A stretch of 52,563 bases of DNA from IMG/VR virus record IMGVR_UViG_3300020183_004978, positions 1 through 52,563 of that record. One strand, 5' to 3'. A model generated the notes under the pieces. That model was not told where the DNA came from, did no database searches, and saw only the letters and a list, made by a program, of their open reading frames with translations. The stretch comes from a virus. Made by a program: the position numbers and the translations under genes. Shown in pieces: positions 17,253 through 52,563 of the stretch (position 1 is the stretch's first letter; each line of letters begins with the position of its first letter).

Positions 17253-17254
17253 AA

Positions 17255-18256: not shown

Positions 18257-18258
18257 AA

Positions 18259-19221: not shown

Positions 19222-19223
19222 AA

Positions 19224-20045: not shown

Positions 20046-20070
20046 AACAATTTAAACTAGTAAAAATAGT

Positions 20071-20418: not shown

Positions 20419-20430
20419 AGCCTTCTGTTT

Positions 20431-22108: not shown

Positions 22109-22127
22109 TTTAGAATATAAAACTTAT

Positions 22128-25100
22128 TTATTTGTTTTCTAAATTTGTAATCCTAGTGTCAAGTTCTTGTACGGATTTTACTATTGATGCTATAAGTTCT
22201 TCGTAAGTCAACCTATAAGCGTCTTTGTCGTCATCGTGACCAAGGCCGTCGAATTTAACTCCCAATTCGTCTATTACTTGCTTCAATTCTTGAGCAATGA
22301 ATCCGTAGTGTTCCTTATTTCCTATTAAAGTGCCGTCTTTATCTCCGTAATTGTACTTACACTCTCTAACGTACGTTTCTCTATTATCCCAATTAAAAGC
22401 CACGGGTCTAAGCTTTTTAATAAAAGATAGACCAAGTTTTTCTGGTAAAGATTTTACGTTAGTTTTATCCCTGCAATCAGAAACGGTAGACCATGCAACG
22501 TATACACAGTTACAAACGTTATTTCCAGAGTTACCCCAAACTGTGTGTCCGGTCGTAGCGCTTGTAGCACTAGTTGCTCCGACTGCTATCGTGTTGTTGA
22601 CACCCGTATTAAGACCGCTCTGCGCCTTTACGCCTACCGCGGTATTACAATTTCCCGAAGTGTTACTCTTCAGAGCACAAAAGCCTACACCAGTGTTACA
22701 ACAACCGGCCGAAATACTACTCAAAACATCAGCTCCAAAAGCTGAGTTACAACCTCCCGAAAGATAAAGGCCTGACAAAGTCGACATTCCAACACCTGTA
22801 TTTTGAGCTGCCGTATTGGCCTGTAGAGATTTGTAGCCTATCCCTATGTTCGATCCACCGTTACCTGCGTTACACATCGCAAAAGTGCCTATAGCTATAT
22901 TTTCTGATCCGTTAGAACTATTGGCCAACGTGCAGGCTCCTATAGCAATGTTTCTGTTGTTACCGTTACACCTTAAAGAGAACGCTCCAATCGCTACGTT
23001 GTGACTTTCGAAAGTTGTAGCCATGTTGTTTGAGAATAAAGCGCACCTGCCTATAGCGATGTTGTAACCTCCGGTAGTGTTGCACCTAAGAGACAAGTAA
23101 CCTATCGCAACGTTGTTAGTTCCCCTTGTGTTTGCAGCAGCTGCCAAGCTGCCGATCGCAGTGTTAAAGGTGCCCGAAGTGTTACAAATAAGAGCGCTAG
23201 ATCCCACTGCAACGTTATTCACTCCTGTGGTGTTAGCTGTGATAGAGTAAGCGCCCACAGCGATGTTTGCAGTAGTTGTGTTTGTAGAGGCAAACGTATT
23301 CTTTAAAGCGTTTCTTCCCAATGCTATGTTGTGATTACCCGGATTCGCGTTTGGTGAAGACATGGCTTGGTATCCCATAACGATGTTGTGCCCTCCGTTC
23401 ATGCGACACGCTGTCCTGTATCCAAAAGCTATGTTGCAACCTCCACCTCCATTGCCCGCTTCCATCACAAGTTGACCGACTAAAAAGTTAGTGTCGCCGC
23501 AGTTACTGTCTCCTGCTCTGTATCCTATTATGGTTGATCTATGGAAATTACATCCACTCCTACCAGCTGACCTACCAATTAGAGTATTAGAATCCCCCGT
23601 CGTGATTCCACAACCTGGCAAATCTCCCAACATCACATTAAAAGCGCCGCTAGTTAAGGTGGTTCCTGCAGAACTTCCTATCAAAACATTTGCACGACCA
23701 GACGTCATCGCCTGCCCTACATCCCTTCCCACAACCGTGTTCCTAACTCCAGTAGTAAGACAAATTAAACCATGATGTGATATTGCAATATTAGCATAAC
23801 CGGTTGTAACTTTGTAAAGAGCGCAAGTACCAATGGCTATGTTTGAATTAGTAGGCCAATAGTTAGGGTTACCAGCGGGAGCAAAATTTGAATTTCTAAG
23901 CGCTTGGTATCCGATTGCTATTTGCAAATGATTACTTACGTTCGATAATAGAGCCTGATTACCTATTGCTATATTACGCCTACCGCTTACGTTAGAAGCT
24001 AGTGATCTAGACCCTATTGCGACGTTAGAATAACCTACAGTAGCTGCGGTGAGTGCGTACGCGCCAACTGCAATATTAGATGTAGCGGAAGTGGATCCAA
24101 AATTCTGGGCTAGTCCTGCTCCCCTACCCACCGCAACGTTGAAGCCTCCCGTAGTGTTTGCGCAAAGCGCTCTGTACCCCATCGCTACGTTGCTTGCACC
24201 CGTGATGTTTGACCCAAGAGCGTTGCAACCCAACACAGAGTTGGTAATTACTGCTCCCCCTCCCCTACCTACAGCAAGCGAATTTACCACTAAAGCAGTC
24301 CCATCGAAAGTTAAATTGGCTTCTCCATTAATAGTGCCCGCTACTCCTGTAGCTGTGAGTACGAAGTTGTCTACGTTGTTGTTAATGGTAGCAGCACCAG
24401 CTATGCCTTGAATTCCCTGTGTTCCCTGCGTTCCTTGCGCTCCGGTATTACCAGTGGTTCCCTGTGTTCCCTGTGCTCCAGTATTACCAGTGGTTCCCTG
24501 TATTCCCTGTGCTCCAGTGCTGCCTGTAGCTCCTTGCGTTCCTTGCGCTCCGGTATTACCAGTGGTTCCCTGTATTCCCTGTGCCCCAGTGCTGCCTGTG
24601 GCTCCCTGTGTTCCCTGTGCTCCAGTATTACCAGTGGTTCCCTGTATTCCCTGTGCTCCAGTACTGCCTGTGGCTCCTTGCGTTCCTTGCGCTCCGGTAT
24701 TACCAGTGGTTCCTTGTATTCCCTGTGCTCCTGTAGTTCCTTGTATTCCCTGAGTTCCCTGCGCTCCAATGTTACCAGTGGTTCCCTGTATTCCCTGTGT
24801 TCCCTGTATTCCCTGAATTCCTTGAGTTCCTTGTGTTCCCTGAGTTCCCTGCGCTCCGCCTGTTCCTGTAATTCCTTGTGTGCCTTGAGATCCTCCTGAT
24901 CCAGTCGATCCCTGTGTTCCCTGCGTTCCCTGTGCTCCTGTAGTTCCTTGTATTCCCTGAGTTCCCTGTGCTCCAATGTTACCAGTGGTTCCTTGTATTC
25001 CCTGTGCTCCAGTACTGCCTGTGGCTCCCTGCGTTCCCTGTGCTCCAATGTTACCAGTGGTTCCCTGTATTCCCTGTGCTCCTGTAGTTCCTTGTATTCC

Positions 25101-38096: not shown

Positions 38097-38111
38097 GCGA
38101 CTTTTGGGATG

Positions 38112-38196
38112 TGCCTCAGACGGGAATCGAACCCATACGAGCTTTCAGCTCAACAGATTTTAAGTCTGTCTTGTCTACCTATTCCAACACCGAGGC
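38112..38196 (-). tRNA. tRNA-Leu (UAA)
   Basis: The coding strand gives acceptor GCCTCGG/CTGAGGC, an anticodon arm ACAGA-CTTAAAA-TCTGT with anticodon UAA, a long class II variable arm (TTGAGCTGAAAGCTCG region) and a T arm with GGTTCGATTCCC. The CCA end is not encoded. Length is 85 bases. The many Leu TTA codons in this A/T-rich genome make a UAA tRNA useful. Confidence 0.93.
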
Positions 38197-38236
38197 TAGT
38201 AGTTTAGTCTTTCAACGTTCTAACGATATTTTTTAG

Positions 38237-38309
38237 TGGACTCTCACGGGCTTGAACCGTGGACCTAATGATTATGAGTCATTTGCTCTACCAACTGAGC
38301 TAAGAGTCC
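38237..38309 (-). tRNA. tRNA-Met (CAU)
   Basis: The coding strand gives acceptor GGACTCT/AGAGTCC, D arm GCTCAGTTGGTAGAGC, anticodon arm AATGA-CTCATAA-TCATT with anticodon CAU, and T arm CACGGTTCAAGCCCGTG. Length is 73 bases; CCA is not encoded. It reads as an elongator Met tRNA; a CAU anticodon could also be an Ile tRNA with modified C34, which cannot be told from sequence alone. Confidence 0.92.
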
Positions 38310-38544: not shown

Positions 38545-38841
38545 TTATAAATCCCACTTTAAGATTACGGTCGTGTCGCTGTAACTGGAGACTGGAATTG
38601 GGGTAGAAACCTTGCCTACGACCAAGAGCTCGTTCCTATCGTTGTATAGTCCTACTGTGGTAAAGTAAGGTCTAAAGTCTGATCCTGTAGCGAAGTCCCT
38701 TACGTCGCCAAAACTACCCGTTCTAAGAGTGGGATTTAGGCTGTAATTGAAATCGTTCTGCTCTATGACGCAGCGAACCTCCCTTTGGTATACGGTGGTT
38801 TCTGCTTGTAGGTCTACTTTAAACGTTTGGTAACTTGGCAT
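38545..38841 (-). CDS. Short paralogue of a structural protein C-terminal domain
   Basis: This 98-residue protein resembles the C-terminal ~90 residues of the partial gene at 51977-52563: TTVGLYNDRNELLVVGKVST here against TTVGMYNDNNELLAVAKLSK there, with similar strands before (NDFNYSLNPTLRTGSFGDV against GDYNYTTNPSFTSGSGDLV). It is a stand-alone copy of that domain. An ATATTTAT box lies 5 bases before its ATG, as with virion genes. It is probably a small virion component. It starts 21 bases after the HtrL/GT fusion gene. Confidence 0.7.
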   Translation of the reverse strand: MPSYQTFKVDLQAETTVYQREVRCVIEQNDFNYSLNPTLRTGSFGDVRDFATGSDFRPYFTTVGLYNDRNELLVVGKVSTPIPVSSYSDTTVILKWDL

Positions 38842-38862: not shown

Positions 38863-40539
38863 TTAGTTCTCTCTCCTATCCTCCCTAGAATAAAATTCAA
38901 ACCTATCGTGTTCTGTAGGAGTGGCTAAAAGTATTCCTGGATATATTCTTCCTTTCATAGTTTCTTGATATATGTAAGACATCCAAGTCTGTTCGTAGGG
39001 ATGAGCCCACTTCGTCTCCAAGAACATCTTTCTGTTTCCCTCTTTTGATACTGTTTGCGGCCAATTACAGTAGTACACTTCTCCAGTGGCGTAAGGCACA
39101 CCCGTGTGAGACTTTATGTTTTTGAAGTTCGTAAAAGGCTCCTTTCCATAATCGTTTTCGGATTTGTTGGGGTGTTCTGGAAAATACTTCTCTCTTACGT
39201 CTTGGGGTATGTTATACCACGCCCACTGTCTTGAGTTGTCTCCGAAGAATTCTGTGAAGTTCCACTTGAGAAAATCAAAATTTTCTTTGAGCATTAGGCT
39301 CATCATTTTATCGTAAAAATCTTCTATTTTTCTTATGAAACCGCTTCTGCAAAATTCGTCTTTTCCCAAATAAAAAAACATGTCGTCTTCGAAGAAGAAG
39401 TGAAAATCTAAATCGTTTTCTTCGGCGTGTTCAGCTATGAACTGTCTTGCTCCGCATATGCCTATATTATTTTTGTGTATCTCTTCAAAACCGTATTTAT
39501 CGCACAGAAGATCGTAATCGCGGAATGTTTTTTCGTCCGTAGAGTTGTTGATTAGGTACTTTTTGGGCTTATTCAAAAAAGAATTGTCGTAAATATCAAA
39601 AGACGTGCAAAGCTTTTCAAATTGTTTCGGAGAGTTAAAAGTTAAAACGTACAGCGCAACTTTTACATCTTCAACGCTTTTCACCTCTTTTAACTCAATT
39701 TTCTCTTGCTTTGACACCAGCGAATCGTTTTTAAGGTCTTCAAAAAACTTACCCAATAATCCGTTTGATTCTATTTCGTAGTACTGTATTAATTCTGGGT
39801 ACAAATACGTCATTATAGTGAATACGCTCTCTTCGGTACCCATTAAGCCTTCGCTTAGGGTTTGATTGAGAATGCCGTAATAAATAGAATTTATTTCTTT
39901 GATGGACGATTTTGGTCCTCCAAATATTCCTCCTCTAGCAACTTTATCTACTTCAGCTTTAGAATACTGACACATATCTTTGTATGTGAATCCGTGAATT
40001 TCTACTTTTCCATCGTAAGGAAAACAAACGAAGCTAAACTTATTGAAGTACTTGTCTATCTTTTGAATAACCTTATCGTGCCAAAAATAACCCTCGTGTA
40101 CAGTATTGGTTAAGGCTCCGTCTATCCACACCAAATGAGAAGACCCAAACGGATCCAATATCGCAGCGTCGTTTAGCAAAAACATCTTAGACATTACTAT
40201 CAGGTTGTAATACTCTAATTTTGCTTGCGTGCTTTCTGTTAGCCAAGATGATTGGCTAAACCAATCTGGGTTTACTCTTATCTTTTCTATCTTTTTAAAT
40301 AGATCTCCGTTTTTTAAAAACCACTCTAAGCCTCTAACGATAACACGGGTATTGTGTTTTTTTCTTCTCTTCCAAACAAAATTTTCGTACTCTTCCTCTA
40401 TAAAAATAATCATATTGTCTTCTACTTTCATTAACTTTTCTAAGTTATTCAAGTAGTGTTCGAAACTTCTACTCCAACCCTCGGTTAGAGTGTCTCTTTT
40501 AATATTCCAAATGCCCGTAACTATGGTGATTTTACTCAT
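38863..40539 (-). CDS. HtrL/YibB-like protein fused to a GT-A glycosyltransferase domain
   Basis: This 558-residue protein has two halves. Residues about 1-275 match the HtrL/YibB (WlaTC) family: TGIWNIKRDTLTEGWSRSFE, NPDWFSQSSWLTESTQAKLE and LVWIDGALTNTVHEGYFWHD, then ARGGIFGG and GTEESVFTIMTYLYPELI. Residues about 300-558 form a GT2-type domain: ALYVLTFNSPKQFEKLCTSF, then ICGARQFIAEHAEEN and FHFFFEDDMFFYLGK with the acidic DD donor site. The family is found in surface polysaccharide loci; its activity is poorly known. It is the last gene of the right-hand modification cluster and overlaps the next by 8 bases. The fusion suggests two sequential sugar transfers. Confidence 0.75.
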   Translation of the reverse strand: MSKITIVTGIWNIKRDTLTEGWSRSFEHYLNNLEKLMKVEDNMIIFIEEEYENFVWKRRKKHNTRVIVRGLEWFLKNGDLFKKIEKIRVNPDWFSQSSWLTESTQAKLEYYNLIVMSKMFLLNDAAILDPFGSSHLVWIDGALTNTVHEGYFWHDKVIQKIDKYFNKFSFVCFPYDGKVEIHGFTYKDMCQYSKAEVDKVARGGIFGGPKSSIKEINSIYYGILNQTLSEGLMGTEESVFTIMTYLYPELIQYYEIESNGLLGKFFEDLKNDSLVSKQEKIELKEVKSVEDVKVALYVLTFNSPKQFEKLCTSFDIYDNSFLNKPKKYLINNSTDEKTFRDYDLLCDKYGFEEIHKNNIGICGARQFIAEHAEENDLDFHFFFEDDMFFYLGKDEFCRSGFIRKIEDFYDKMMSLMLKENFDFLKWNFTEFFGDNSRQWAWYNIPQDVREKYFPEHPNKSENDYGKEPFTNFKNIKSHTGVPYATGEVYYCNWPQTVSKEGNRKMFLETKWAHPYEQTWMSYIYQETMKGRIYPGILLATPTEHDRFEFYSREDRREN

Positions 40540-41407
40540 TGATTCCGTTAATTTCTTCTAATATTTTATAAAAGCTCTTATTTACTTTAAAAAAATCTTG
40601 AGGCGCTTCTTTGTAATTGTCTTCATGCCACCACACATCGAAATTTAGCGTTTTAAACCACTCCTTATGATTTTGGTACATTAACCCCATTATGTGCTCT
40701 TCAAAATATAATCTCTTTTCTTCTTTAGAAATTAATCTTAAATAAAAATCAAACTTATCGACTATTTTGTTCCATAAATCTACTTTTCCACCAAAAAAAC
40801 CTCCTATTATATGCACACTTTTATCGTATTTTGTATAGTATCTCTCATTAACCGTGCCATCCCAGTAATTACGAAAGTTTTCTTTAGCTACTATAACAAA
40901 CTTATCTTCTGAAGATGAAATTAAATTTTCCAAAAATTTATCATTAAATAGAGTGCTTTCAAAGTATCCTCTATACCCAAGCATTGGCAGATATTTGTTA
41001 GGTATTATTCCTGTGTGAGATAAACCAGCATCAAACCAAAAATAATAATCGTACGTTCTATCTTCTTTTTTAAACCAAGAAAACTTAGAATATTGTATTT
41101 CCACGCATCTATCGGATTTTTTTGTTGCCTCAAAATCTTTTATAGAATTGATCATTTCTGCATATTCTGTCTTAGCTATATCGTATACTTGAAATTTTAA
41201 TTTATCTTGTGAAACTTGGTGAGTTTCATAAAAGAAATTTTTTAAATCTTCTATCTCTCTTTCAGATGTATAGCATAAAAAATCTGCTTCAGACATCTTT
41301 AAAAGTGATAAAAGGCTAAATCTATAATGATCTTTTCTACCAGACCTTCCTCCTAAGTCACCTCCATATAGGTCAGAATAAATACACGTTGTTATTTTAA
41401 CTTTCAT
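40532..41407 (-). CDS. HtrL/YibB-like putative glycosyltransferase
   Basis: This 291-residue protein resembles the HtrL/YibB family: TYDYYFWFDAGLSHTGIIPN (about residues 123-142) parallels the WIDGAL region of the adjacent fusion protein, and SVHIIGGFFGGKVDLWNKIV then RLYFEEHIMGLMYQNHKEWF parallel its GGIFGG and E-x-HI/E-x-S regions. The N-terminus KITTCIYSDLYGGDLGGRSG is different. Activity is probably sugar transfer; donor and acceptor are unknown. It overlaps the fusion gene by 8 bases and is 1 base after the GT25 gene. The sequence is A/T-rich compared with late genes. Confidence 0.65.
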   Translation of the reverse strand: MKVKITTCIYSDLYGGDLGGRSGRKDHYRFSLLSLLKMSEADFLCYTSEREIEDLKNFFYETHQVSQDKLKFQVYDIAKTEYAEMINSIKDFEATKKSDRCVEIQYSKFSWFKKEDRTYDYYFWFDAGLSHTGIIPNKYLPMLGYRGYFESTLFNDKFLENLISSSEDKFVIVAKENFRNYWDGTVNERYYTKYDKSVHIIGGFFGGKVDLWNKIVDKFDFYLRLISKEEKRLYFEEHIMGLMYQNHKEWFKTLNFDVWWHEDNYKEAPQDFFKVNKSFYKILEEINGINE

Positions 41408-41408
41408 C

Positions 41409-42125
41409 TTATTCTCTCATTTTTACGCACATATCAAAATCAAGATACTTTGAATCTAACTTATCCGGATAATATGCATTCCAATTATACGTCATAATAT
41501 AATGATTTGAATCTACCGTTTTATTTATGTCTGAAAAATCTTTTTTTTGAGTTATTAATGGTAATTTTGCAGAAAACGATTGTAATTTTGGATAAAGTCC
41601 TAGATACATAAATTCGTCTATGGGTTTTTGTCTATGAAAATTTTCTATTATTTTATTAGTGTCCCACTCTCTAATACATTCGCATGCTATTTTGGTTAAT
41701 ATGAACCCCGATGTACCAAAAATACCCCTATGTTCGTTTATGTCTTTTGGCGGAACTTTAGTCAAATCTACTAAATTTTCTGAAAATTTATTTAGAGGTC
41801 TATGTATAGAAGGGGCGAAATGAAAAAAACACCAATCAATATTACTTAATTCTTCTTCTATAAGAGGTATCATTTTTTTTGCGTACGGCATAAAAAATAT
41901 ATCGTCTTCAAAAACCATTGCATATTCGTAACCTCGCTCTAGTATAATATTTGCTACTTTTTGATGAGAATACGCGCAACCCATATAACTATCTGTATCA
42001 ATCGCATCAAATCTCTCAAAATCCCAATCCATGTAATCAAACTCCTTTCTAACAGATTCTAATCTATCTTTTCTTCTCTCTAAATTAATTACAAATTTTG
42101 GAATAGTCTTAAAATTAATTTTCAT
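41409..42125 (-). CDS. GT25 (LPS biosynthesis type) glycosyltransferase
   Basis: This 238-residue protein fits GT25: IPKFVINLERRKDRLESVRK at the start, DAIDTDSYMGCAYSHQKVAN with the G-x-x-x-SH motif, and YEYAMVFEDDIFFMP with the EDD acidic site (about residues 75-78). IFGTSGFILTKIACECI is the later acceptor-side motif. Members add galactose or other hexoses to LPS or collagen; GT25 also includes collagen galactosyltransferases that use hydroxylysine, which is of interest since the window encodes a collagen-like fibre and a 2OG oxygenase. The start overlaps the next gene by 11 bases. Confidence 0.85.
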   Translation of the reverse strand: MKINFKTIPKFVINLERRKDRLESVRKEFDYMDWDFERFDAIDTDSYMGCAYSHQKVANIILERGYEYAMVFEDDIFFMPYAKKMIPLIEEELSNIDWCFFHFAPSIHRPLNKFSENLVDLTKVPPKDINEHRGIFGTSGFILTKIACECIREWDTNKIIENFHRQKPIDEFMYLGLYPKLQSFSAKLPLITQKKDFSDINKTVDSNHYIMTYNWNAYYPDKLDSKYLDFDMCVKMRE

Positions 42126-42876
42126 AAATTAAATGGTTTTTGTTGTCATAACCTCTTCTATGTACAAATATTACTGAACCTATTTCGGTAGCCTTTTCTA
42201 TATTTCTGTTTAAGTCAGTCCAATAACCATAAGTGTCTATGTCGTTAGTTGGGCAATTATACCTAACAGATAATATAGAAAGAATGCTCTGATCATGTCT
42301 ATGATTATTTGAAAAACCATCTATGCACCCAGGTATTTGAGCATATTTCCAACCTTCTATTATCATTTGTTTATACTTCCCTTCACTTTTGAATCCAAAA
42401 ATACCTGAAGATAGTTGTTTTCCGTTCAACTCGTCTTCGGTAGCATGCATAATTTTTATACAATCTTCGTGAGTAAAATTTTTATTTACGTGAGTGTCTC
42501 CGACTAAAAATATATCTTCACTATCTATTAAATCAAATATGGGCTTTAAACTTTTTAGTGCACAAACTCCTGCGTCTAGCCATAAAACATTTTTGGAAAC
42601 CTGAATAGAATCATATAAAGACTCCATTTTTAAGAAATGACATTTTGTTTTTATTGAAGATATGTTTTTATAAAAATCATAATTTTTATTTGCGTCTACT
42701 AAAAAAACTTTTTTAAGATTTTTCAATCTTGATATCTCTGATGCGTCTAATCCAAAATCACATACAAAGATAGCATCTACCAAATGTAAGCTATCTTTAT
42801 GAATGCTACTTATTAAGGTCAATAAAGATTCAAAATATGGACTATTAGCTCCAGTTATTACGATATTGTTATGCAT
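42115..42876 (-). CDS. GT8-like glycosyltransferase
   Basis: This 253-residue protein has a GT-A pattern: IVITGANSPYFESLLTLISS at the start, DAIFVCDFGLDASEISRLKN, the acidic site NVLWLDAGVCALKSLKPIFD (about residues 95-114), GKQLSSGIFGFKSEGKYKQM, and HRHDQSILSILSVRYNCP. It most resembles GT8-like or DUF1647-like proteins that transfer hexoses. The DxD is replaced by D-A-G. It overlaps the GT10 gene by 8 bases and the GT25 gene by 11 bases. Confidence 0.7.
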   Translation of the reverse strand: MHNNIVITGANSPYFESLLTLISSIHKDSLHLVDAIFVCDFGLDASEISRLKNLKKVFLVDANKNYDFYKNISSIKTKCHFLKMESLYDSIQVSKNVLWLDAGVCALKSLKPIFDLIDSEDIFLVGDTHVNKNFTHEDCIKIMHATEDELNGKQLSSGIFGFKSEGKYKQMIIEGWKYAQIPGCIDGFSNNHRHDQSILSILSVRYNCPTNDIDTYGYWTDLNRNIEKATEIGSVIFVHRRGYDNKNHLIYEN

Positions 42877-43684
42877 TTTTATTGTTTATGTAAGTTTGTA
42901 TTATTTTCTCTGGAAACATATATTTTTTTGCCAATTCAAAATTAGCTTTTACTGAATCTATTTTTGATAGATACAGTTCGGGCGTTAACGTGTCTAAAAT
43001 TTGTGCTACATGTTCCGGTTCTGTGAAAAAGAACATGCCGTTAGAATCAAAAAATTTCCCTATATTTTTTATTCCTAAATAAATTGGAACTGTTCCTGAT
43101 AGAAAACAATCTAATAGTTTTTCGGAAAAATAATCTCCATCATCATTATTTTCTATGACTATAGAAAACCTATAGTCTTTTAAACCTTTTATTTTAAAAT
43201 CTATGGGTTTTTCTGGTCCCGTGCCATAAAAATCGACTTTATTGTGTTTTATAGCTTCATACACTCTAAATCTCATTTTGTGATAAGAATTCCATTGTTT
43301 GCAAGAAAAAATAAAACTTGTCATTTTAGATTTTTCATGTAAGTTAATATCTTCTTCTCTTAGCCACGTCCCTCCATGGGGAACATACACCGCATTTTCT
43401 GCTCTATTTAGCATATCAGTACTATGAGTGAAAATATTTTTAAAATTATTTTTACTTTTTACTACGTTATTGTAATTATCTCCATTTATTATAGAAGGTT
43501 CTACTATCCAAGCATAGTTTTGTTTATCTTCTCTTATTTTAGACGTGAAACACATTCTGTCTACGTATATTGCTATATCGTATTCTTCTGTGTTTCTAGT
43601 CCAATCGACTCCTGGATGTATATATCTCGATAAACCGGGTTGACCGATTAAGTTTTCATCAAATAGCTTAATAATCTCATTCAT
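42869..43684 (-). CDS. GT10 (alpha-1,3-fucosyltransferase-like) glycosyltransferase
   Basis: This 271-residue protein has the GT10 C-terminal signature at residues 171-204: YRFSIVIENNDDGDYFSEKL followed by LDCFLSGTVPIYLG, the GDP-fucose binding motif of alpha-1,3/1,4-fucosyltransferases. The N-terminal half (NYAWIVEPSIINGDNYNNV; FTHSTDML; VYVPHGGTWLRE) is the variable acceptor domain. It should transfer fucose or a related 6-deoxy sugar from a GDP donor. No GDP-fucose synthesis genes are visible, so the donor would come from the host or elsewhere in the genome. Confidence 0.85.
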   Translation of the reverse strand: MNEIIKLFDENLIGQPGLSRYIHPGVDWTRNTEEYDIAIYVDRMCFTSKIREDKQNYAWIVEPSIINGDNYNNVVKSKNNFKNIFTHSTDMLNRAENAVYVPHGGTWLREEDINLHEKSKMTSFIFSCKQWNSYHKMRFRVYEAIKHNKVDFYGTGPEKPIDFKIKGLKDYRFSIVIENNDDGDYFSEKLLDCFLSGTVPIYLGIKNIGKFFDSNGMFFFTEPEHVAQILDTLTPELYLSKIDSVKANFELAKKYMFPEKIIQTYINNKNA

Positions 43685-43689
43685 ATTTT

Positions 43690-44448
43690 TTATTTTTGAT
43701 ACAATAATCTCAATATGTTATCTATTGATTTTTTATTTTCTTCTCTATTGTAAGGTCTCGGAAAATGACAATCTATATACGCATCTTGAGTAATTTTATT
43801 AAAATCGTACCTATTCCAATAATCTCTATCTAGTCTATCTGTAGCATAGCCTTCTCTAAATCCTCTAGAAAGTTTTATTATTCTGTGTTCATTATCTATT
43901 TCAAAATCTCGTACACATTTTCCTATATATAACTCATCTGTATCCCACTTTCTATTATGTTGTATGTCAAAACTATCTAACCTCTCAATAAATTCATAAT
44001 ATGAGCAATTTAATTTTAATATTTCTTTATACGTGCTTCCCATTGCTAAATTATAGCACATGGGATATCTCGTTTGTCTATAATATCCGTAAGCGTCAGA
44101 AGTGTATATTACAATTTGATCGTCTTTTGCATTATTAGCATTATTTAAAAAATAAGATTTTAACATCGGTAACATATCGATGTCAGAAGTTAAATACGTT
44201 TTATGTTCATATAATGAAGTCGCATACAATCTAGCGACTTGAGATTGAAAAGAAGTTTCTATGTTTTTTACTTTTTTGTAACCTACTATTATGCAGTTTT
44301 CTTCTTCTTTAATAAAATTTTCTTCCCCTATTATTACTAATATAGGAGTAACTCCTATAACGTTATTCCAAGCATCTTTTATTATTTGCCAAAAACCATC
44401 ATACTCTGGATTATTATCAGTTGCTACTATAACATAATCTATATTCAT
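43690..44448 (-). CDS. Putative GT-A glycosyltransferase
   Basis: This 252-residue protein has an N-terminal Rossmann start (NIDYVIVATDNNPEYDGFWQ), IGVTPILVIIGEENF, and a DxD-type site HKTYLTSDIDMLPMLKSYFL (about residues 85-104). It continues with QTRYPMCYNLAMGSTYKEIL and RKWDTDELYIGKCVRDFEID, a C-terminal D-E-acid pattern. Family is not certain; it resembles proteins annotated as glycosyltransferases in surface polysaccharide loci. It overlaps the methyltransferase gene by 4 bases, so the two are co-translated. Confidence 0.65.
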   Translation of the reverse strand: MNIDYVIVATDNNPEYDGFWQIIKDAWNNVIGVTPILVIIGEENFIKEEENCIIVGYKKVKNIETSFQSQVARLYATSLYEHKTYLTSDIDMLPMLKSYFLNNANNAKDDQIVIYTSDAYGYYRQTRYPMCYNLAMGSTYKEILKLNCSYYEFIERLDSFDIQHNRKWDTDELYIGKCVRDFEIDNEHRIIKLSRGFREGYATDRLDRDYWNRYDFNKITQDAYIDCHFPRPYNREENKKSIDNILRLLYQK

Positions 44449-45083
44449 AAGAGAGTGTTATTATTTAATACCCATATTGAATCTGACTGAATCGCGTCTT
44501 CGGCTACATATTTAAAATATAGCTGTACATATTTTTTTTTCTGTAAATATTTTTTTATTTCTTCGTACATTGTTTGATTTTTCCATATTTCTGTATGTTC
44601 GCATTCTATATGAAAAGATAGTATATTATGTATTTTTTCTTTAAAACTTAATAAAACTTCATATGTTAACCCTTCTACGTCTATTTTGCAAAGATCTATT
44701 TTTTTATTTATCCTTTTTATCAAATCCTCTCCCGTAATAGTTTTTATTTTTATTTTTTGTAAACCTGAACCTTGTCTTTCGTACCACGTATCCTTTCTAT
44801 TATATAGAGAACTGGTGCCTGCATCTGCTCCTAAAACTTGATAAAAAATTCTTTCTCCTCTTTCTATATAGATTGCATCCTTTATTATATTAAAATTAGG
44901 ATAATCTTTACTTATTTTTTCGTATTGTATTGGATTAGGCTCTACTACCCACACGTTTTCGTCTTTTATATCGAAATTTTTTCTTAACGCATTTGCATCA
45001 TGACCGTGCATAGAACCTATTTCTAATACGACTTTAGGATTTATATTAGTTTTTTGTTTTATTGTATTAATATATTCTATCAT
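44445..45083 (-). CDS. FkbM-type SAM-dependent methyltransferase
   Basis: With the ATG at 45083 the protein has 212 residues. The SAM-binding motif is KVVLEIGSMHGHDANALR, followed by VWVVEPNPIQYEKISKDYPN, and the FkbM signature is IDLCKIDVEGLTYEVLLSF. FkbM enzymes O-methylate sugars or polyketides. In this operon a sugar O-methylation on the glycan being built is the simplest role. A reading 6 codons longer would need a TTG and overlap the GT60 gene; the ATG leaves a 4-base gap and is preferred. Confidence 0.85.
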   Translation of the reverse strand: MIEYINTIKQKTNINPKVVLEIGSMHGHDANALRKNFDIKDENVWVVEPNPIQYEKISKDYPNFNIIKDAIYIERGERIFYQVLGADAGTSSLYNRKDTWYERQGSGLQKIKIKTITGEDLIKRINKKIDLCKIDVEGLTYEVLLSFKEKIHNILSFHIECEHTEIWKNQTMYEEIKKYLQKKKYVQLYFKYVAEDAIQSDSIWVLNNNTLL

Positions 45084-45087
45084 ACTT

Positions 45088-46359
45088 TTATAGATAACCA
45101 ACGATCCTATTTACCCAACCTTTAGATTCAGAGTGTGGCCAAACTACCCAATATTTAGGTTGAGTAACTGTTTGAAACTCTCTCCATATTTTACAAAATC
45201 CATCTGTGTCCTGCATTAAGCGCTGTATTTCCTCTTTAGTTATGTCTTGTCTGTGAACCGTTTCTTCGTTCTCGCCGTGAAAAGCTACCACCCAAAAATC
45301 GTAGTCTTTTTCTGGCAGAGATCCGTGACCCACGTCTATGCAGTGTTTGAAGACCCTAGAAAAAGAAGACAGCCACAGTTCCTCGTCTTCTATTGGTGGA
45401 TTTGGAGGGTAGTAGTTGTCTATGGTATACTTTTGAATTGCTCTCCTACTAAACAGCATACCTGCGTACTTTTCGTAATCTCTCAGCGTTCTAACTTTAC
45501 CAAAACCGTAGGGACCATCGTGACCTTCTTGTTCCAGTCCATCCATGCCAAAAAGTTTCCTATTTATCAAGTGAGACTTTGCGTTTTTCTCTGACCACTG
45601 CGGATCGTCTCCCCAAACCTGCTTCCTGTAGCTCCTGGTGTACTCATGCCAGCATATAACTTTATGGGGATGGAATATATCGTATCCCCAAGAGTAAGCT
45701 CTGGCAGCTATCGAGATCTCTTCCCCGTGAAACAGGTAATCGGGGTTGTGTTGAACCTCCTCGCAAAACTTTCCAAGCGTAAAACAGAAGTGAGCAGAGA
45801 AAAACCTACCTGGAACGGGGAGCGTCCTCTCTTGCCAGTTCTTTACGGTCTCGGGTTTGAAAAATACCGCACCTTCTGGTATGAACCTATCGAAGACCAT
45901 TTGCCAAGGTTCTTGTGCGCGACCTTCCGGATCGTTGTGAGGTTGGTAAGAAGAAACGTAAGCGGTTAATAGAGGTTTCTTGTGTCCCTCTTTTTGTAAA
46001 TCTTTGACCATCTTGATCAACTCTTGGTCCCAATTCTTTACGAATCTGTGATGTGAGTCCAAGTGCAAAGTATACTCTTGTTTTGGCAACTCCTGTTCGC
46101 AGTAAAGCTTTTGCAGAGAGTTTCTTGCCCAGCAAACGCCCTTGGTTTCTTTGTAGTGAACGTCTATTATCTTGAACCTACTATCTTCTTTGTACTTGGA
46201 TAGGTCGTCGAAACCATCCTCTGGGTTGTACTGTCTACAGATGGCTATGGTAAGCTTTTCTGGGTTTTTTGCGTTAGCTAAAAGATCTTCTATGGTAGGT
46301 ATCAACTCTGGATCCCTGTAAGAAGCTATCTGAACGAATATAGTATTTTTATTACTCAT
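45088..46359 (-). CDS. GT60-like polypeptide GlcNAc-transferase (paralogue 2)
   Basis: This 423-residue protein belongs to the GlcNAc glycosyltransferase family (GT60): IFVQIASYRDPELIPTIEDL, AKNPEKLTIAICRQYNPEDG, YTLHLDSHHRFVKNWDQELI with the DSH donor/metal motif (about residues 98-100), and PDYLFHGEEISIAARAYSWG, then HPHKVICWHEYTR. GT60 enzymes add alpha-GlcNAc to Ser/Thr of mucin-like proteins (trypanosomes) or to hydroxyproline of Skp1 (Dictyostelium). It aligns over its whole length with the 417-residue gene just upstream, so the pair arose by tandem duplication. It follows the Thr/Pro-repeat protein genes, likely substrates. Confidence 0.85.
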   Translation of the reverse strand: MSNKNTIFVQIASYRDPELIPTIEDLLANAKNPEKLTIAICRQYNPEDGFDDLSKYKEDSRFKIIDVHYKETKGVCWARNSLQKLYCEQELPKQEYTLHLDSHHRFVKNWDQELIKMVKDLQKEGHKKPLLTAYVSSYQPHNDPEGRAQEPWQMVFDRFIPEGAVFFKPETVKNWQERTLPVPGRFFSAHFCFTLGKFCEEVQHNPDYLFHGEEISIAARAYSWGYDIFHPHKVICWHEYTRSYRKQVWGDDPQWSEKNAKSHLINRKLFGMDGLEQEGHDGPYGFGKVRTLRDYEKYAGMLFSRRAIQKYTIDNYYPPNPPIEDEELWLSSFSRVFKHCIDVGHGSLPEKDYDFWVVAFHGENEETVHRQDITKEEIQRLMQDTDGFCKIWREFQTVTQPKYWVVWPHSESKGWVNRIVGYL

Positions 46360-46364
46360 AGATT

Positions 46365-47618
46365 TTATTCGTATTTTATAACACCTTCAATAACATCGCA
46401 CCAGCCCTTTGATTTTGAGTGAGGCCAAACTCTAGTAGAGTATGGTAATTGCAAGCTTTCGTACTCTCTCCAAATGTGTATGAATTGATCTGTAGCAGAA
46501 GCGTTCATAATAGATTTTATTTCGTTTTCATCTGCGTCTTTTCTGTGTAAATCTTTGCCTTCTTCGTCTAAGAAAGCGACGGCAAAGAAATCGTAATCTG
46601 TCTCTGTAAGAGATCCTTTGTACACGTTTATGCAGTGTTTTTGAACGTTCATCAAGCCAGATTCATAGTCTCCTTGAGTAGGAGGAAAGTTGTTATCTCT
46701 TGTGTAAGAGTGAATTTGCCTAGTAGAGAATTTTAATCCAGAGTAAACTTCGTAATCGTACAAACTTCTGACGTTTCCGAAAGCGTAGGCTCCCATTGTT
46801 TTTTTTCTTTGGCAAGAAGAACACCCGTCTTCCATGCCAAATAAAATTCTGAACCTCTTGTAAGAGTTCTTATCCCTCTCTGACCAATCGGAGCTATCGT
46901 CCCAGTGTTTTTTCTTTCCTTCTCTAGTGTATTCGTGATAAACTATGGGTTTGTGAGGAGAAAATAAATCGTACCCCCAAGTGTACGCTCGAGCAGCCAA
47001 AGACGTCTCTTCTCCGTGAAAGTAAAGCTCTGGATCGTAGGGCACTTCTCTAGCAAAAGATCCGAGGGTGAAGACGAAGTGCGCTGATAAGAACCTTGTT
47101 GGAAATGGTTCCTTCAAATCCCTCCAGTTGTCCACGTGATGGGGTCTCAGGAACGCGGCGCCTTCGGGTAAAAACCTATCTATGTTTAGACCCCACACTT
47201 CTTGCAATTTACTCTCCGTTTTAGGATCGTAAGAAGGAAGGTACGAGCTTATAAGGGGTTTTTCGTAACCCTTACACCTTAAAAAATTAACATAATCCTT
47301 TAACGTAGAGTCCCAGTGTTTTTCGAATCTGTGATGTGAGTCCAACTGTAAGTAATAGTCCTCCCCAGAGTACAGTTTTTGTATCTCGCTTCTGGCCCAA
47401 CAAACCCCCTGAGCGTCTTTGTAGTCTATGTCAAGTATAGAAAACCTATCATCGTTTTCATACTCTTTAAGATCGTCCCACTCGTCTTCTAGAGCGTGTT
47501 GCCACGCGATGGCAATTCTTAAGTTTTTGGGGTTTTTTGCTTTATTAATTAAATCCCTTAGAGTTTTTTTAAGTTCAGGATCCCTATAAGAGGCGATCGA
47601 AACGAATGTTAATTTCAT
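46365..47618 (-). CDS. GT60-like polypeptide GlcNAc-transferase (paralogue 1)
   Basis: This 417-residue protein has the same motifs as its neighbour: FVSIASYRDPELKKTLRDLI, LRIAIAWQHALEDEWDDLKE, YYLQLDSHHRFEKHWDSTLK with DSH, and PELYFHGEETSLAARAYTWG with HEYTRE. It also has SCQRKK, a Cys pair missing from the second copy. The two copies probably act on different sites or steps, since both keep the catalytic motifs. It starts 58 bases after the large TPSNTV-repeat gene with no terminator between them, so repeat protein and GT60 pair are in one transcriptional unit. Confidence 0.85.
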   Translation of the reverse strand: MKLTFVSIASYRDPELKKTLRDLINKAKNPKNLRIAIAWQHALEDEWDDLKEYENDDRFSILDIDYKDAQGVCWARSEIQKLYSGEDYYLQLDSHHRFEKHWDSTLKDYVNFLRCKGYEKPLISSYLPSYDPKTESKLQEVWGLNIDRFLPEGAAFLRPHHVDNWRDLKEPFPTRFLSAHFVFTLGSFAREVPYDPELYFHGEETSLAARAYTWGYDLFSPHKPIVYHEYTREGKKKHWDDSSDWSERDKNSYKRFRILFGMEDGCSSCQRKKTMGAYAFGNVRSLYDYEVYSGLKFSTRQIHSYTRDNNFPPTQGDYESGLMNVQKHCINVYKGSLTETDYDFFAVAFLDEEGKDLHRKDADENEIKSIMNASATDQFIHIWREYESLQLPYSTRVWPHSKSKGWCDVIEGVIKYE

Positions 47619-47676
47619 ATGTAACCTTATGTATTTAGTGACTGCTTAAAAAATAATAAAGTCAAGCATCATTATT

Positions 47677-50600
47677 TTACAGTTGTACGCAATATGGATC
47701 GTCGCAATCCGCTACGGTACCGTCGTTTCCTCCAAAATTAGTGGTATCAAAGGTCATTTCTATAAAACTATCGATTTCAAAACACTCTCCAAAATTTGAA
47801 GAATTTGCTTTGTAATAATTACCTACCGTTAACGCGTTATTTGTCACTAATACTGAAGTACCGCCATCGCTACACCTAGTGGCGTTATACTTGTAGTTCG
47901 TTGGTATAGGAGTACCTGTAGGAGTGGGTGATACTGTATTACTTGGTGTGACTGTGTTACTTGGTGTGACTGTGTTACTTGGTGTGACTGTCGGTGTTTT
48001 CGTAATAGAAGGAGTGGGAGTGGGAGTTGCTGGTACGCAACACGATCCGTTGCTAATAACCGTAAACACCGCTGTGGTTCCATAACTACACCCTGGACAT
48101 GAGATAGCTGTTTCTTGTATCGATATGTTATTAGAATAGGGTCTATTTGCATCTACGCATATTTCAGAACCTGATTCGGCTCCACCCTCAAAGAACAATC
48201 CACTGCAATCGAAATAGTTAAACGAACTGTTATTAGTTATTACGGCCTCTTGACAATCACAATAGTGTGGAGATTTGCTAGTGTCTACACACAGCGGCGA
48301 ACTTCCATAACTAGTATTTCCTGTCGATACAGATCCGGAACGTAACACTCCATTGCAATCGAAGTAATATATGTCTCCTGCTGTTGTAACATTTATATTC
48401 ACAGAAGTAACACAATTATTACATGGAGTTGTACTTGGAGTATTAGTTGGAGTGACAGTGTTGCTAGGTGTCACTGTGTTACTCGGTGTCACTGTGTTGC
48501 TAGGCGTCATTGTGCTACTAGGTGTCACTGTGTTGCTAGGCGTGACTGTGTTACTTGGCGTCACTGTGTTGCTAGGTGTCACTGTGTTGCTAGGCGTGAC
48601 TGTATTACTTGGTGTGACTGTGTTACTTGGCGTGACTGTGTTACTTGGTGTTTCACTAGGTGTCACAGTGTTACTTGGTGTCACTGTATTACTTGGCGTG
48701 ACTGTGTTGCTAGGCGTGACTGTGTTACTTGGCGTGACTGTGTTACTTGGTGTCACTGTATTACTTGGCGTGACTGTGTTGCTAGGCGTGACTGTGTTAC
48801 TTGGCGTCACTGTGTTGCTAGGTGTGACTGTGTTGCTAGGCGTGACTGTATTACTTGGTGTGACTGTGTTACTTGGCGTGACTGTGTTACTTGGTGTTTC
48901 ACTAGGTGTCACTGTGTTGCTAGGTGTGACTGTGTTACTTGGCGTCACTGTATTGCTAGGTGTGACTGTGTTGCTAGGCGTGACTGTGTTACTTGGTGTG
49001 ACTGTGTTGCTAGGCGTGACTGTGTTGCTAGGCGTGACTGTGTTACTTGGTGTGACTGTGTTACTTGGCGTGACCGTGTTACTCGGTGTTTCACTAGGTG
49101 TCACTGTGTTGCTAGGTGTGACTGTGTTACTTGGTGTCACTGTGTTGCTAGGTGTGACTGTGTTACTTGGCGTCACTGTGTTGCTGGGTGTGACTGTATT
49201 ACTTGGTGTGACCGTGTTACTTGGCGTGACTGTGTTACTTGGTGTGACCGTGTTACTTGGTGTTTCACTAGGTGTCACTGTGTTACTTGGTGTCACTGTA
49301 TTACTTGGAGTGACTGTATTACTTGGTGTGACTGTGTTACTTGGCGTGACCGTGTTACTTGGTGTCACTGTATTACTTGGAGTGACTGTATTACTTGGTG
49401 TGACCGTGTTACTTGGCGTGACTGTATTACTTGGTGTGACCGTGTTACTTGGTGTTTCACTAGGTGTCACTGTGTTACTTGGTGTCACTGTGTTACTTGG
49501 AGTGACTGTATTACTTGGTGTGACTGTGTTACTTGGCGTGACCGTGTTACTTGGTGTCACTGTATTACTTGGTGTGACTGTGTTACTTGGCGTGACTGTA
49601 TTACTTGGCGTAACTGTGTTACTTGGCGTGATGCTAGGTGTGACAGTACTAGATGGCGTTATAGATGGAGTTTTGGTTACAGAAGGAGTTGGGGAAGGAG
49701 ATACGGGAGCGCAAGTAGTGATCGAGGTGATCACTCCATTGTTGTCTGTAACGACCAGGTAGTTAGTGGATCCGTTCAACCACTTTATCACGTGACCAGA
49801 AGCACCGGTCTTGAGAGGAACGCTCAACACTCCACTGTAGTTTTTCGTGTATAATGTGATACCTGTGACTATTGCAGCGCCCTCTGAAGAGTAAGAATAC
49901 ACACTACCCATCAAAAACGCTGCGTCTGCGCAAACTACTCCATCGTATGTTGGGTGTTCGTATACCAGATCACACTCTGTGAAATTTATAATTTCTCCAT
50001 CAGTATTTGTTTCTATGGAATACCTACCTCCGGACCAAGTTATGAGATCGTTGGTTCCGTACGTGTAAAGGGGAACGCTTAGCGTGTTTCCTACTCTTAC
50101 TGTGTATACAACGATACCCAGTCTCATGGATCCAACATTATAGGAGTATACTGTTCCTATCGGAGATGTCAATACATCTGAACAGCTCACATTTCCATAA
50201 CTTGTTTCTTCCCTGGGAGTCGTAGAAGTTCCTATAGTGGAACTAGGAGTGTTGGTGGGTGTCACCGTAACTGTCAAGCTAGGAGTGACGCTGGTAGTAG
50301 TCGTAGGGCTGTTAGTGGTGGTGGGCGTAATAGTTTTGGTAGGGTTGGGAGTGACTTGAGGGGTTACGCTGGGAGTATTTGTAACAGTAACGCTTGGGGT
50401 TACAGTGTTTGTGGGAGTGATAGAAGGAGTGGCTGTAGAGGTAGGTGTTACGCTTGGCGATAGTCCAGTAGTAGAAGTGTTCGTTGGCGTGATTGTGATT
50501 GTGGGAGTGTTAGTGGCGGTAACGCTAGGAGTGACAGAAGGAGTTGCCCCCACCAGTGAAACTGTACTAGACTCCGGCGAAGGCGAGCACGTATCGTTAT

Positions 50601-50769
50601 TTATTAGCGTAACGCTTGTCGCTGAAAAGGGAATGTCTATTGGCACTCCCGCGACCAAGTCTACCGTATCTACGTCAGACATCACTAGGTTTGTAGTGTC
50701 GTAGTATATGCTGTACGGACCGCTAGCGAGGTTGTAAGTGGTTAATCGTATAGTGACTTGTCTTCCCAT
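47677..50769 (-). CDS. Giant Thr/Pro-repeat (mucin-like) virion protein
   Basis: This 1030-residue protein alternates folded modules with Thr/Pro stalks. Residues 1-70 form a beta domain. Residues 74-185 are a first Thr/Pro stalk. Two tandem Cys-containing domains of about 75 residues follow (YGNVSCSDVLTSPIGTVYSY and YDGVVCADAAFLMGSVYSYS). Then about 400 residues of near-perfect NTVTPS repeats, interrupted by ETPS. Then two Cys-rich modules (GDIYYFDCNGVLRSGSVSTG; SSFNYFDCSGLFFEGGAESG), another Thr/Pro stalk and a Cys-containing end domain. It lacks an N-terminal signal peptide, which suits a virion protein. Ser and Thr make up about half the repeat, so it is an ideal O-glycosylation substrate; two GT60 genes follow directly. 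Confidence 0.85.
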   Translation of the reverse strand: MGRQVTIRLTTYNLASGPYSIYYDTTNLVMSDVDTVDLVAGVPIDIPFSATSVTLINNDTCSPSPESSTVSLVGATPSVTPSVTATNTPTITITPTNTSTTGLSPSVTPTSTATPSITPTNTVTPSVTVTNTPSVTPQVTPNPTKTITPTTTNSPTTTTSVTPSLTVTVTPTNTPSSTIGTSTTPREETSYGNVSCSDVLTSPIGTVYSYNVGSMRLGIVVYTVRVGNTLSVPLYTYGTNDLITWSGGRYSIETNTDGEIINFTECDLVYEHPTYDGVVCADAAFLMGSVYSYSSEGAAIVTGITLYTKNYSGVLSVPLKTGASGHVIKWLNGSTNYLVVTDNNGVITSITTCAPVSPSPTPSVTKTPSITPSSTVTPSITPSNTVTPSNTVTPSNTVTPSNTVTPSNTVTPSNTVTPSNTVTPSNTVTPSNTVTPSETPSNTVTPSNTVTPSNTVTPSNTVTPSNTVTPSNTVTPSNTVTPSNTVTPSNTVTPSNTVTPSETPSNTVTPSNTVTPSNTVTPSNTVTPSNTVTPSNTVTPSNTVTPSNTVTPSNTVTPSETPSNTVTPSNTVTPSNTVTPSNTVTPSNTVTPSNTVTPSNTVTPSNTVTPSNTVTPSNTVTPSETPSNTVTPSNTVTPSNTVTPSNTVTPSNTVTPSNTVTPSNTVTPSNTVTPSNTVTPSNTVTPSNTVTPSNTVTPSNTVTPSETPSNTVTPSNTVTPSNTVTPSNTVTPSNTVTPSNTVTPSNTVTPSSTMTPSNTVTPSNTVTPSNTVTPTNTPSTTPCNNCVTSVNINVTTAGDIYYFDCNGVLRSGSVSTGNTSYGSSPLCVDTSKSPHYCDCQEAVITNNSSFNYFDCSGLFFEGGAESGSEICVDANRPYSNNISIQETAISCPGCSYGTTAVFTVISNGSCCVPATPTPTPSITKTPTVTPSNTVTPSNTVTPSNTVSPTPTGTPIPTNYKYNATRCSDGGTSVLVTNNALTVGNYYKANSSNFGECFEIDSFIEMTFDTTNFGGNDGTVADCDDPYCVQL
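48432..49650 (-). repeat. 18-base tandem repeat encoding NTVTPS, with ETPS interruptions
   Basis: The repeat unit is 18 bases. Twelve-base ETPS insertions (TTTCAC on the plus strand) occur at 48651, 48897, 49089, 49263 and 49455; the spacings are 246, 192, 174 and 192, each equal to 18n+12 with n = 13, 10, 9 and 10. Copies differ almost only at synonymous positions (for example TTACTTGG against TTGCTAGG), so the protein repeat is conserved while the DNA has drifted. Confidence 0.95.
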
Positions 50770-50789
50770 TCTTTTTTATCTGTACGCTT

Positions 50790-51941
50790 TTAACATATTA
50801 TACTACCGTCTAAGGTTATGTAAACAAAGTTGATACCCGCTGATATGGTTACTTGGTAAGTGCAACCGAATCCCGATGAAGGACAAGTAGATGGATCTCC
50901 TGCGATAGTTTTATTGTCCACGTCGCTAAACGTCACCGTGTCTCCGATATTCAGAGGGCCTATGTTAACTAGATTAGCACAACTAGTTGTCAGTGCTCCT
51001 ATATTTATTTGCGCGCCCGTATTTATTTGATATTGTAAGTTTCCATTAGTGTTCACGTACTTACCGAACACTTCCAATTCAGTATAGGGTGTAGTGCTTG
51101 GAGTGACAGTGTTAGTTGGAGTGACAGTGTTAGTTGGAGTGACAGTGTTGCTTGGCGTGACTGTGTTACTTGGTGTGATGCTTGGCGTCACTGTGCTACT
51201 TGGAGTGACAGTGTTAGTTGGAGTAGGGCTTGGAGATCCTCCGGGAGTTTTCGTTACAGTTGGAGTTACTGTGTTAGTGGGAGTATTCGTAGGCGTTTTG
51301 GTATTGGTAGGAGTGTTGGTGGGCGTGACTGTGTTCGAAGGTGTTTGACTTGGAACGACTATCGAGGAGGAATCCTGGTCTATCTCAAACTCAAAACCTT
51401 GTGGGTTTATAAAGTAACACACGTAGTTTGGGTTGGTGATTATAGCGAAAGCTTGAGAGTATATTATGTTTCCCACCTTTACGTTGGAAGCATTCATATC
51501 TAGCAAATTTCCGTTTCCATCGTCATATATATTGTAATTGGCGCTGCTGAGAAGGAAACTCTTCCTTGCTATCTGTTCTCCAAAAACGTTTCTAGGAATG
51601 TACAAAGCCGCTATTTCGGCTCCTGATTGGGTTGGAAAGAATCTTACGTCCTCGTCCATGGAACCCGATGCCGCTGTAGATTGGTAGCTAGAATCGTAAG
51701 CCGATCCACTTCCAAGCAAACTACCAGAAATGTAATTTCTGTAAAAAAGTTGTTCTATTAAGTTGTAATTGATTTTGAATTGGGGGGTTTTTCGACTAGA
51801 GGTTACAGGAGTATTAATCCCCCTTACTATCGAAATACCTACGCTATTAAAATTACTATCAGAATATGAAGCAGAGTACTTTAACTTTACGGGAGCGGTC
51901 GAAATATCAGAAAACTTAATAGTATTCTTTGACCTACTCAT
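50790..51941 (-). CDS. Virion protein with Thr/Pro stalk
   Basis: This 383-residue protein has a folded N-terminal domain (residues about 1-200; RSKNTIKFSDISTAPVKLKY; GAEIAALYIPRNVFGEQIAR; FAIITNPNYVCYFINPQGFE), a Thr/Pro stalk (about 205-300) of TPTNTP and TPSNTV units, and a C-terminal beta domain with several Cys (SCANLVNIGPLNIGDTVTFS, CPSSGFGCTYQVTISAG). The same stalk motif appears in the giant repeat protein 20 bases downstream, so both are surface appendage proteins and candidate glycosylation targets. The N-terminal domain resembles phage structural proteins of unknown role. Confidence 0.75.
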   Translation of the reverse strand: MSRSKNTIKFSDISTAPVKLKYSASYSDSNFNSVGISIVRGINTPVTSSRKTPQFKINYNLIEQLFYRNYISGSLLGSGSAYDSSYQSTAASGSMDEDVRFFPTQSGAEIAALYIPRNVFGEQIARKSFLLSSANYNIYDDGNGNLLDMNASNVKVGNIIYSQAFAIITNPNYVCYFINPQGFEFEIDQDSSSIVVPSQTPSNTVTPTNTPTNTKTPTNTPTNTVTPTVTKTPGGSPSPTPTNTVTPSSTVTPSITPSNTVTPSNTVTPTNTVTPTNTVTPSTTPYTELEVFGKYVNTNGNLQYQINTGAQINIGALTTSCANLVNIGPLNIGDTVTFSDVDNKTIAGDPSTCPSSGFGCTYQVTISAGINFVYITLDGSIIC

Positions 51942-51976
51942 TATTTTTCTTTGAGATTTTTAAGTCTTTTCCAAAA

Positions 51977-52563
51977 TTAAAAGTCTAATTTTACGCGAAT
52001 TAAACACTCTTTCGTAAAGTCTTTTACCAGTGGTTTTGATAGTTTTGCTACGGCTAACAATTCGTTGTTATCGTTATACATACCTACCGTTGTTATGTAA
52101 GTTTGGGGACTGAATATGAAATCAGAGTATACTAAATCTCCAGATCCAGAAGTAAAAGATGGATTTGTTGTGTAATTGTAATCTCCATTTTTTATCCTAA
52201 CAAAAACGTAATCTGAGGATATAGTCTCTTTTGAGTTTAGTTGAAAACTATTTGCACCGGTGTTAGTCATAAAAGTAAACAGAGTAGTTTCAGCGGCTTT
52301 AGAATTTACGTTCGAAAAAGTAGGTGCGGTAAACGAAAGACCTCCATTAGCATACGTTAATGATAAAGCCCTAGGATTAAGAACTATCAATCCTACGTCA
52401 GGTAAAAACAAACCGTAAGAACCACTGACTGTGTATCCCTTAGTGGCTCCACTTAGGGTGGGAGAGTTTCTTGCGGTTCCATTAGAACCCGAAACTATAT
52501 CGTACGCCCTTCCGCAATCCAAAAAGGTGACGACGGTAACATCGTTAGAATTATCTGTTAATT
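51977..52563 (-). CDS. Structural protein, 5' end outside window
   Basis: The frame is open to the right edge, so the N-terminus is missing; at least 195 residues are seen. The sequence is beta-rich (LTYANGGLSFTAPTFSNVNS, then GDYNYTTNPSFTSGSGDL) and ends with a domain that recurs in the gene at 38545-38841 (TTVGMYNDNNELLAVAKLSK). It precedes the Thr/Pro-stalk proteins, so it is probably part of the same virion appendage. No T4 equivalent is recognised. Confidence 0.7.
   Translation of the reverse strand, partial: LTDNSNDVTVVTFLDCGRAYDIVSGSNGTARNSPTLSGATKGYTVSGSYGLFLPDVGLIVLNPRALSLTYANGGLSFTAPTFSNVNSKAAETTLFTFMTNTGANSFQLNSKETISSDYVFVRIKNGDYNYTTNPSFTSGSGDLVYSDFIFSPQTYITTVGMYNDNNELLAVAKLSKPLVKDFTKECLIRVKLDF

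Follow-up and report, generated by a model that had tools for sequence, protein, structure and literature searches.

Glycosyltransferases (GTs) of family 60 are known from two eukaryotic pathways that are among the closest counterparts of the locus described here. The mucins of Trypanosoma cruzi carry glycans initiated as GlcNAc-alpha1-O-Thr (PMC9472816), and in the Skp1 pathway of Dictyostelium and Toxoplasma the cytoplasmic GT60 enzyme Gnt1 acts first and is followed by extending GTs (PMC6939170). Phage-encoded glycosylation of the virion is known for few phages. Virion proteins of mycobacteriophages are glycosylated, for which shielding has been suggested (Freeman et al., 2023, as cited in PMC12619734); the accessible part of the citing article places these glycans on the C-termini of capsid and tail-tube proteins and mentions neither a mucin-like stalk nor an island of the kind found here. 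We analysed a linear virus fragment of 52,563 bases from IMG/VR (IMGVR_UViG_3300020183_004978; its full length is called the window), which contains T4-like head and tail genes. Downstream of two genes for mucin-like stalk proteins, tp1 and tp2, lie ten more that reach to position 38863, among them two GT60 enzymes (GT60a and GT60b), a cassette of other sugar enzymes, and the HtrL-type enzymes HtrL1 and HtrL2. The open reading frame (ORF) list places all of them on the minus strand, at the positions given by an earlier, sequence-only reading of this DNA. We consider it likely that these genes form a phage-encoded protein O-glycosylation island acting on virion stalks made of tp1 and tp2, with the cassette extending and capping the glycan. 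As that reading had supposed, no description of phage GT60 enzymes or of mucin-like stalk glycosylation was found in the full-text literature, a search that mostly left subscription papers outside.

The locus resembles T. cruzi OGNT1 and its surface mucins in combining a GT60 polypeptide enzyme with mucin-like acceptor proteins, but the reaction there belongs to a eukaryotic Golgi, whereas action in the cytoplasm is expected for a single phage island. With the Skp1 pathway it shares a GT60 enzyme accompanied by a set of GTs, which extend the glycan there and are presumed to do so here. The acceptor of Gnt1, however, is one hydroxyproline. Both the proline-rich stalks and the membership of Gnt1 in GT60 would suit a phage enzyme acting on stalk hydroxyproline, but the prolyl hydroxylase-type dioxygenase PF13640 occurred in 0 of 30 GT60-positive records, in a search of this one 2-oxoglutarate-dependent family whose control was positive in two genomes. 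The hydroxyproline route, mentioned for Skp1 in the sequence-only reading, is not indicated, and we regard it as scarcely credible.

Both initiating enzymes belong to GT60. GT60a (46365-47618; phrog_24687) and GT60b (45088-46359) match PF11397 with E-values of 3.8e-68 and 1.5e-66 and scores of 231 and 225.7 bits (cut-off 21), so that the profile search bears out the family named from sequence; the core match spans profile positions 96-350 of 352, with a second segment near positions 1-45. Among 24 phage and bacterial homologues, D93, H95, E204 and H228 never vary, and S94 and E203 almost never do. The DxH motif, which replaces DxD in GT60 and GT27 (PMC7185993), is therefore present in the phage enzymes as D93 and H95. 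The AlphaFold model of GT60a (predicted local distance difference test, pLDDT, 92.5; predicted template modelling score, pTM, 0.83) has a GT-A fold close to that of the polypeptide GalNAc-transferases (ppGalNAc-T): the best Protein Data Bank (PDB) matches of the model by Foldseek were GalNAc-T2, GalNAc-T4 and TgGalNAc-T3 (E 3e-10, template modelling (TM) score about 0.5), and several of the matched structures were crystallised with mucin glycopeptides. GT27 thus offers the closest fold, the same DxH motif and a common clade with GT60, but was not recovered by sequence from the PDB, where neither GT60 nor HtrL2 queries returned anything useful, and differs in its lectin domain and Golgi location.

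The two GT60 genes had been taken for paralogues. While both are GT60, they are not a simple tandem duplicate: a quick tree of 141 rows, in which the branches that join long bacterial rows are uncertain, divides the phage enzymes into a "first of pair", a "second of pair" and a largely single-copy clade. Because GT60a falls into the first and GT60b into the last of these, the pair is, on its sequences, a mosaic and not a fresh duplication.

The proposed acceptors lie immediately upstream. The tp1 gene (50790-51941; phrog_15511, of unknown function) encodes 383 residues with a TPTNTP/TPSNTV stalk and is a shorter version of tp2 (47677-50769, 1030 residues). Residues 367-782 of tp2 consist almost purely of NTVTPS repeats, of which the whole protein contains 63 units, and this stalk is a Thr/Ser/Pro-rich tandem repeat as in mucin-type acceptors. 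The near-perfect repeat of about 400 residues noted earlier is 416 residues long and comprises 138 Thr, 73 Ser, 73 Pro, 62 Val, 62 Asn and only 8 other residues; globular segments with cysteines lie outside it. Adjacent units differ by 141 silent changes, all at third codon positions, although the lack of changes at positions 1 and 2 arises partly by construction, the units having been chosen by their protein motif. The near-absence of other residues across the 416 positions has no such origin. Since neighbouring units vary by so many silent changes, selection appears to maintain the repeat in the protein as the underlying DNA drifts. The gap between tp2 and GT60a measures 58 bp and that between GT60a and GT60b 5 bp, and GT60b overlaps the following gene by 14 bp. 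No terminator-like site was seen on the minus strand between tp2 and GT60a, in agreement with the sequence-only reading; terminator and promoter counts were at the level of shuffled sequence.

To relate the two components beyond this window, we collected GT60 loci by a scan with GT60a, which gave 20 viral loci, and by an alignment scan, from whose more than 590 candidate relatives the best 80 were kept. Controls were 80 loci around related major capsid protein (MCP) genes and 115 viral loci drawn by neutral 15-mers. Mucin-like ORFs, defined by our own rule and sought in records that are fragments, occurred in 56 of 93 viral GT60 loci, compared with 1 of 80 MCP-clade loci and 0 of 115 random viral loci, corresponding to 5.28, 0.08 and 0.00 such ORFs per 100 kb. 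A mucin-like gene stands directly upstream of GT60 in 25 of the 70 dereplicated loci that have an upstream gene, against a mean of 3.8 and a maximum of 11 in 5000 permutations of genes within the same loci. The frequent order is a virion protein, a mucin-like protein, two GT60 genes, variable genes, HtrL2, and then a small virion protein or the tail sheath. GT60 genes with a mucin-like ORF close by were also seen in some bacterial-genome contigs (L098, L100, L107, L111 and L113), which may represent prophages, phage contigs that ended up in bins, or a bacterial form of the system.

The association also holds when approached from the stalks. Contigs of at least 25 kb retrieved by TPxNTxTP (TP) repeats only carried GT60 in 18 of 43 cases, compared with 0 of 28 neutral contigs, which are shorter on average (Fisher p 3.5e-5); restricted to contigs of at least 100 kb, the counts were 10 of 17 and 0 of 7 (p 0.019). 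Two of 29 capsid-clade contigs have GT60, and the sole contig with the TP pattern among the 29 is one of those two. Adjacency is rarer in this direction: GT60 lies directly or nearly directly downstream in about 8 of 80 TPxNTxTP-repeat loci, and 56 genes downstream of stalks were by Pfam mostly portal and other structural genes. We judged whole-contig co-occurrence to be the better reverse test. The expected co-occurrence of NTVTPS-type proteins with GT60 in other phages is thus above chance both by position and on whole contigs, and the initiating enzyme is genetically linked to mucin-like acceptor candidates far above chance.

The second constant element of the island is HtrL2 (38863-40539), which has an HtrL_YibB domain (PF09612, 9.4e-18) and a C-terminal domain resembling TET-associated glycosyltransferases (TAGT). 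The smaller, single-domain HtrL1 (40532-41407) has no Pfam match and was related to the N-terminal domain of HtrL2 by hhalign (97.7%), so both HtrL-type calls of the sequence-only reading hold; HtrL1 homologues also occur in the GT60 islands of the phages XacN1 and RAS14. Of 93 viral GT60 loci, 85 have HtrL2 nearby. The gene occurs in 0 of 25 contigs that have TP repeats but lack GT60, and in 1 of 22 other GT60-negative contigs, the sole exception being a partial match. Among the 82 loci with both genes, two isolates included, HtrL2 comes after one to eight cassette genes in 64; in the other 18 it directly precedes GT60, separated from it by at most one gene. In Foldseek, a moderate model (pLDDT 78.6) matched double-domain GTs at low TM, namely LARGE1, K4CP, and the chondroitin and heparosan polymerases, and we tentatively describe HtrL2 as a double GT.

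The C-terminal half of HtrL2 weakly resembles phage and TET-associated glycosyltransferases, with residues 356-390 matching TAGT below the cut-off (7e-4) and residues 335-424 matching phrog_842 (7.8e-6). These matches could be taken to mean that the cluster modifies phage DNA to give hypermodified bases, the domain being a DNA glucosyltransferase of the TET-associated or T4 type. We find this very improbable, as GT60 is a polypeptide family, the islands sit with virion genes, and Tet_JBP (PF12851) occurred in 0 of 30 GT60-positive records, in a search that had no positive control.

Between GT60 and HtrL2 the gene content varies like an O-antigen cassette. In the window it comprises an FkbM-type methyltransferase (44445-45101; PF05050 5.2e-11, TIGR01444 1.1e-13), a protein at 43690-44448, a fucosyltransferase-type GT10 (42869-43684; PF00852 1.8e-9), a GT8-like enzyme (42115-42876) and GT25 (41409-42125; PF01755 2.6e-16). 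FkbM, GT10, GT25 and HtrL_YibB pass the Pfam cut-offs, as had been anticipated; the GT8-like call recovered PF01501 at 0.0013, below the cut-off, and the protein at 43690-44448, formerly called a GT-A enzyme, was matched by none of Pfam, PHROGs and NCBIfam. Across 101 cassette genes, Pfam identified FkbM and other methyltransferases, GT2, carbamoyltransferases, GT10 and GT25, and further GT34, GT7, NAD epimerases, GDP-mannose dehydratase and NeuB, families whose predicted roles are glycan extension, capping and sugar-nucleotide supply. We lean towards the broader view of a widespread, transferable "mucin glycosylation island" whose constant core, GT60 and the double-domain HtrL2, would prime mucin-like virion stalks and would enclose an interchangeable, O-antigen-like cassette, giving phages their own glycan serotypes. 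The GT25, GT10, GT8 and HtrL families occur in lipopolysaccharide loci, and the PHROG category of the GT60 family is "moron/host takeover"; the enzymes might accordingly be thought to alter lipopolysaccharide, capsule or S-layer of the host, excluding other phages or changing receptors. Such a role is distinctly improbable, given that the island immediately follows the stalk genes within the late structural region, that GT60 chemistry is directed at polypeptides, and that GT60 is associated with mucin-like ORFs.

Among 50,697 phage records, only the isolated jumbo phages XacN1, CM1 and RAS14 contain a GT60 relative; the related Flavobacterium phage immuto gave no GT60 match in this search. Immuto was also considered as a TP-rich phage lacking GT60 and rejected, its TP-containing gp064 scoring 0 as mucin-like. 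The Xanthomonas phage XacN1 encodes GT60 (ORF334), a carbamoyltransferase, HtrL1 and HtrL2 in one run, together with 14 mucin-like ORFs (ORF174, 180, 190, 232-237, 350, 369, 370, 372 and 384), of which ORF369, 370 and 372 lie near the tail sheath gene. RAS14 has the same cassette type and about nine mucin-like ORFs. The XacN1 virion proteome contained "at least two glycoproteins", and in the accessible parts of the report the phage GTs were proposed as their makers, ORF328 and ORF334 being the only ones noted (PMC5852040). XacN1 resembles our locus in its cassette and its mucin-like ORFs, but its stalk genes lie apart from the cassette, and those parts of the report recognise neither the mucin-like proteins nor the HtrL enzymes. 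The glycosylation system proposed from sequence thus gained GT60 membership, co-occurrence, recurrence in many phages and virion glycoproteins in an isolated relative, but its constant partner turned out to be HtrL2, while the other GTs vary.

Several observations weigh against an island dedicated to the stalks. Glycosylation is predicted here from genes, and a GT60 assignment fixes neither sugar nor acceptor. The glycoproteins of XacN1 are, in the parts of the report at hand, not assigned to particular ORFs (PMC5852040). GT60-positive phages share ancestry, so that the loci are not independent; 37 of 93 viral GT60 loci, some of them incomplete, have no mucin-like ORF in the fetched DNA, and 25 of 43 TP-repeat contigs carry no GT60. 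In four loci (L006, L010, L017 and L018) the neighbours of GT60 are other long virion-type proteins, with GSFTGSFSG-like repeats or other folds. Since TP repeats occur where GT60 was not detected and some GT60 islands adjoin other virion-type proteins, neither component implies the other. The same facts would fit GT60 and its cassette modifying other structural proteins, such as tail fibre, baseplate or capsid, with the TP stalks being plain extended spacers that are neighbours by coincidence. We nevertheless regard this as unlikely, because mucin-like ORFs are very strongly enriched around GT60 and nearly absent from related phages drawn by their capsid genes, and because Ser/Thr in mucin-type sequences are established targets of GT60 and of its relative GT27. 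GT2 is present on 12 of the 25 TP contigs without GT60, including 7 of 7 of at least 100 kb (L144, L178, L179, L185, L186, L189 and L204, 112-261 kb), which also lack HtrL2; another polypeptide GT may serve the stalks of such phages.

Returning to O-glycosylation of the stalks, we infer that tp1 and tp2, made from the late region, would be the substrate of GT60a and GT60b, which would work as polypeptide glycosyltransferases inside the cytoplasm of the host, placing an alpha-linked sugar, probably GlcNAc, on Thr and perhaps also Ser of the TP repeats. HtrL2 would add the next one or two sugars, and HtrL-type enzymes with the variable cassette (here GT10, GT25, the GT8-like enzyme and the FkbM methyltransferase; elsewhere carbamoyltransferases, epimerases and NeuB) would extend and cap the glycan. 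The predicted product is a stiff, hydrated, glycan-coated virion stalk or fibre that might benefit the phage by shielding or by adhesion to surfaces or mucus, and a cassette swap would yield a different glycan. Many environmental phages would then hold, in one island, a GT family that initiates on polypeptides, a mucin-like acceptor and a variable cassette for the glycan. If so, genuine mucin-type glycoproteins are made by phages, which may diversify them much as bacteria do their O-antigens; this would bear on how phages are shielded, how they adhere and how the immune system clears them, and the enzymes would be tools for producing O-glycosylated repeat proteins in the bacterial cytoplasm. 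The claim is directly testable, because virion mass-spectrometry data of an isolated phage are public (PXD008065, XacN1).

The island is flanked by two virion-type genes, also on the minus strand. The upstream ORF (51977-52561), its 5' end cut by the contig end, has homologues upstream of stalk genes in L001, L008, L013 and other loci, and the C-terminal portion of its product is similar to the 98-residue protein that closes the island (38545-38841), homologues of which follow HtrL2 in L001, L003, L004, L008, L013 and others. Two tRNA genes (Leu-TAA and Met-CAT, 38111-38309, minus strand) separate the island from the head genes. A second cluster of sugar enzymes (11853-27512, minus strand) follows a 1794-residue collagen-like fibre with an S74 chaperone domain (22128-27512) and comprises GT4 (20536-21459), a sulfotransferase (19224-20045), an APS kinase (17813-18256), GT17 and a methyltransferase (13347-16139), and GT2 (11853-12629). 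The APS kinase adjoins the sulfotransferase, which points to sulfated glycans made by the phage and perhaps carried by the collagen-like fibre.

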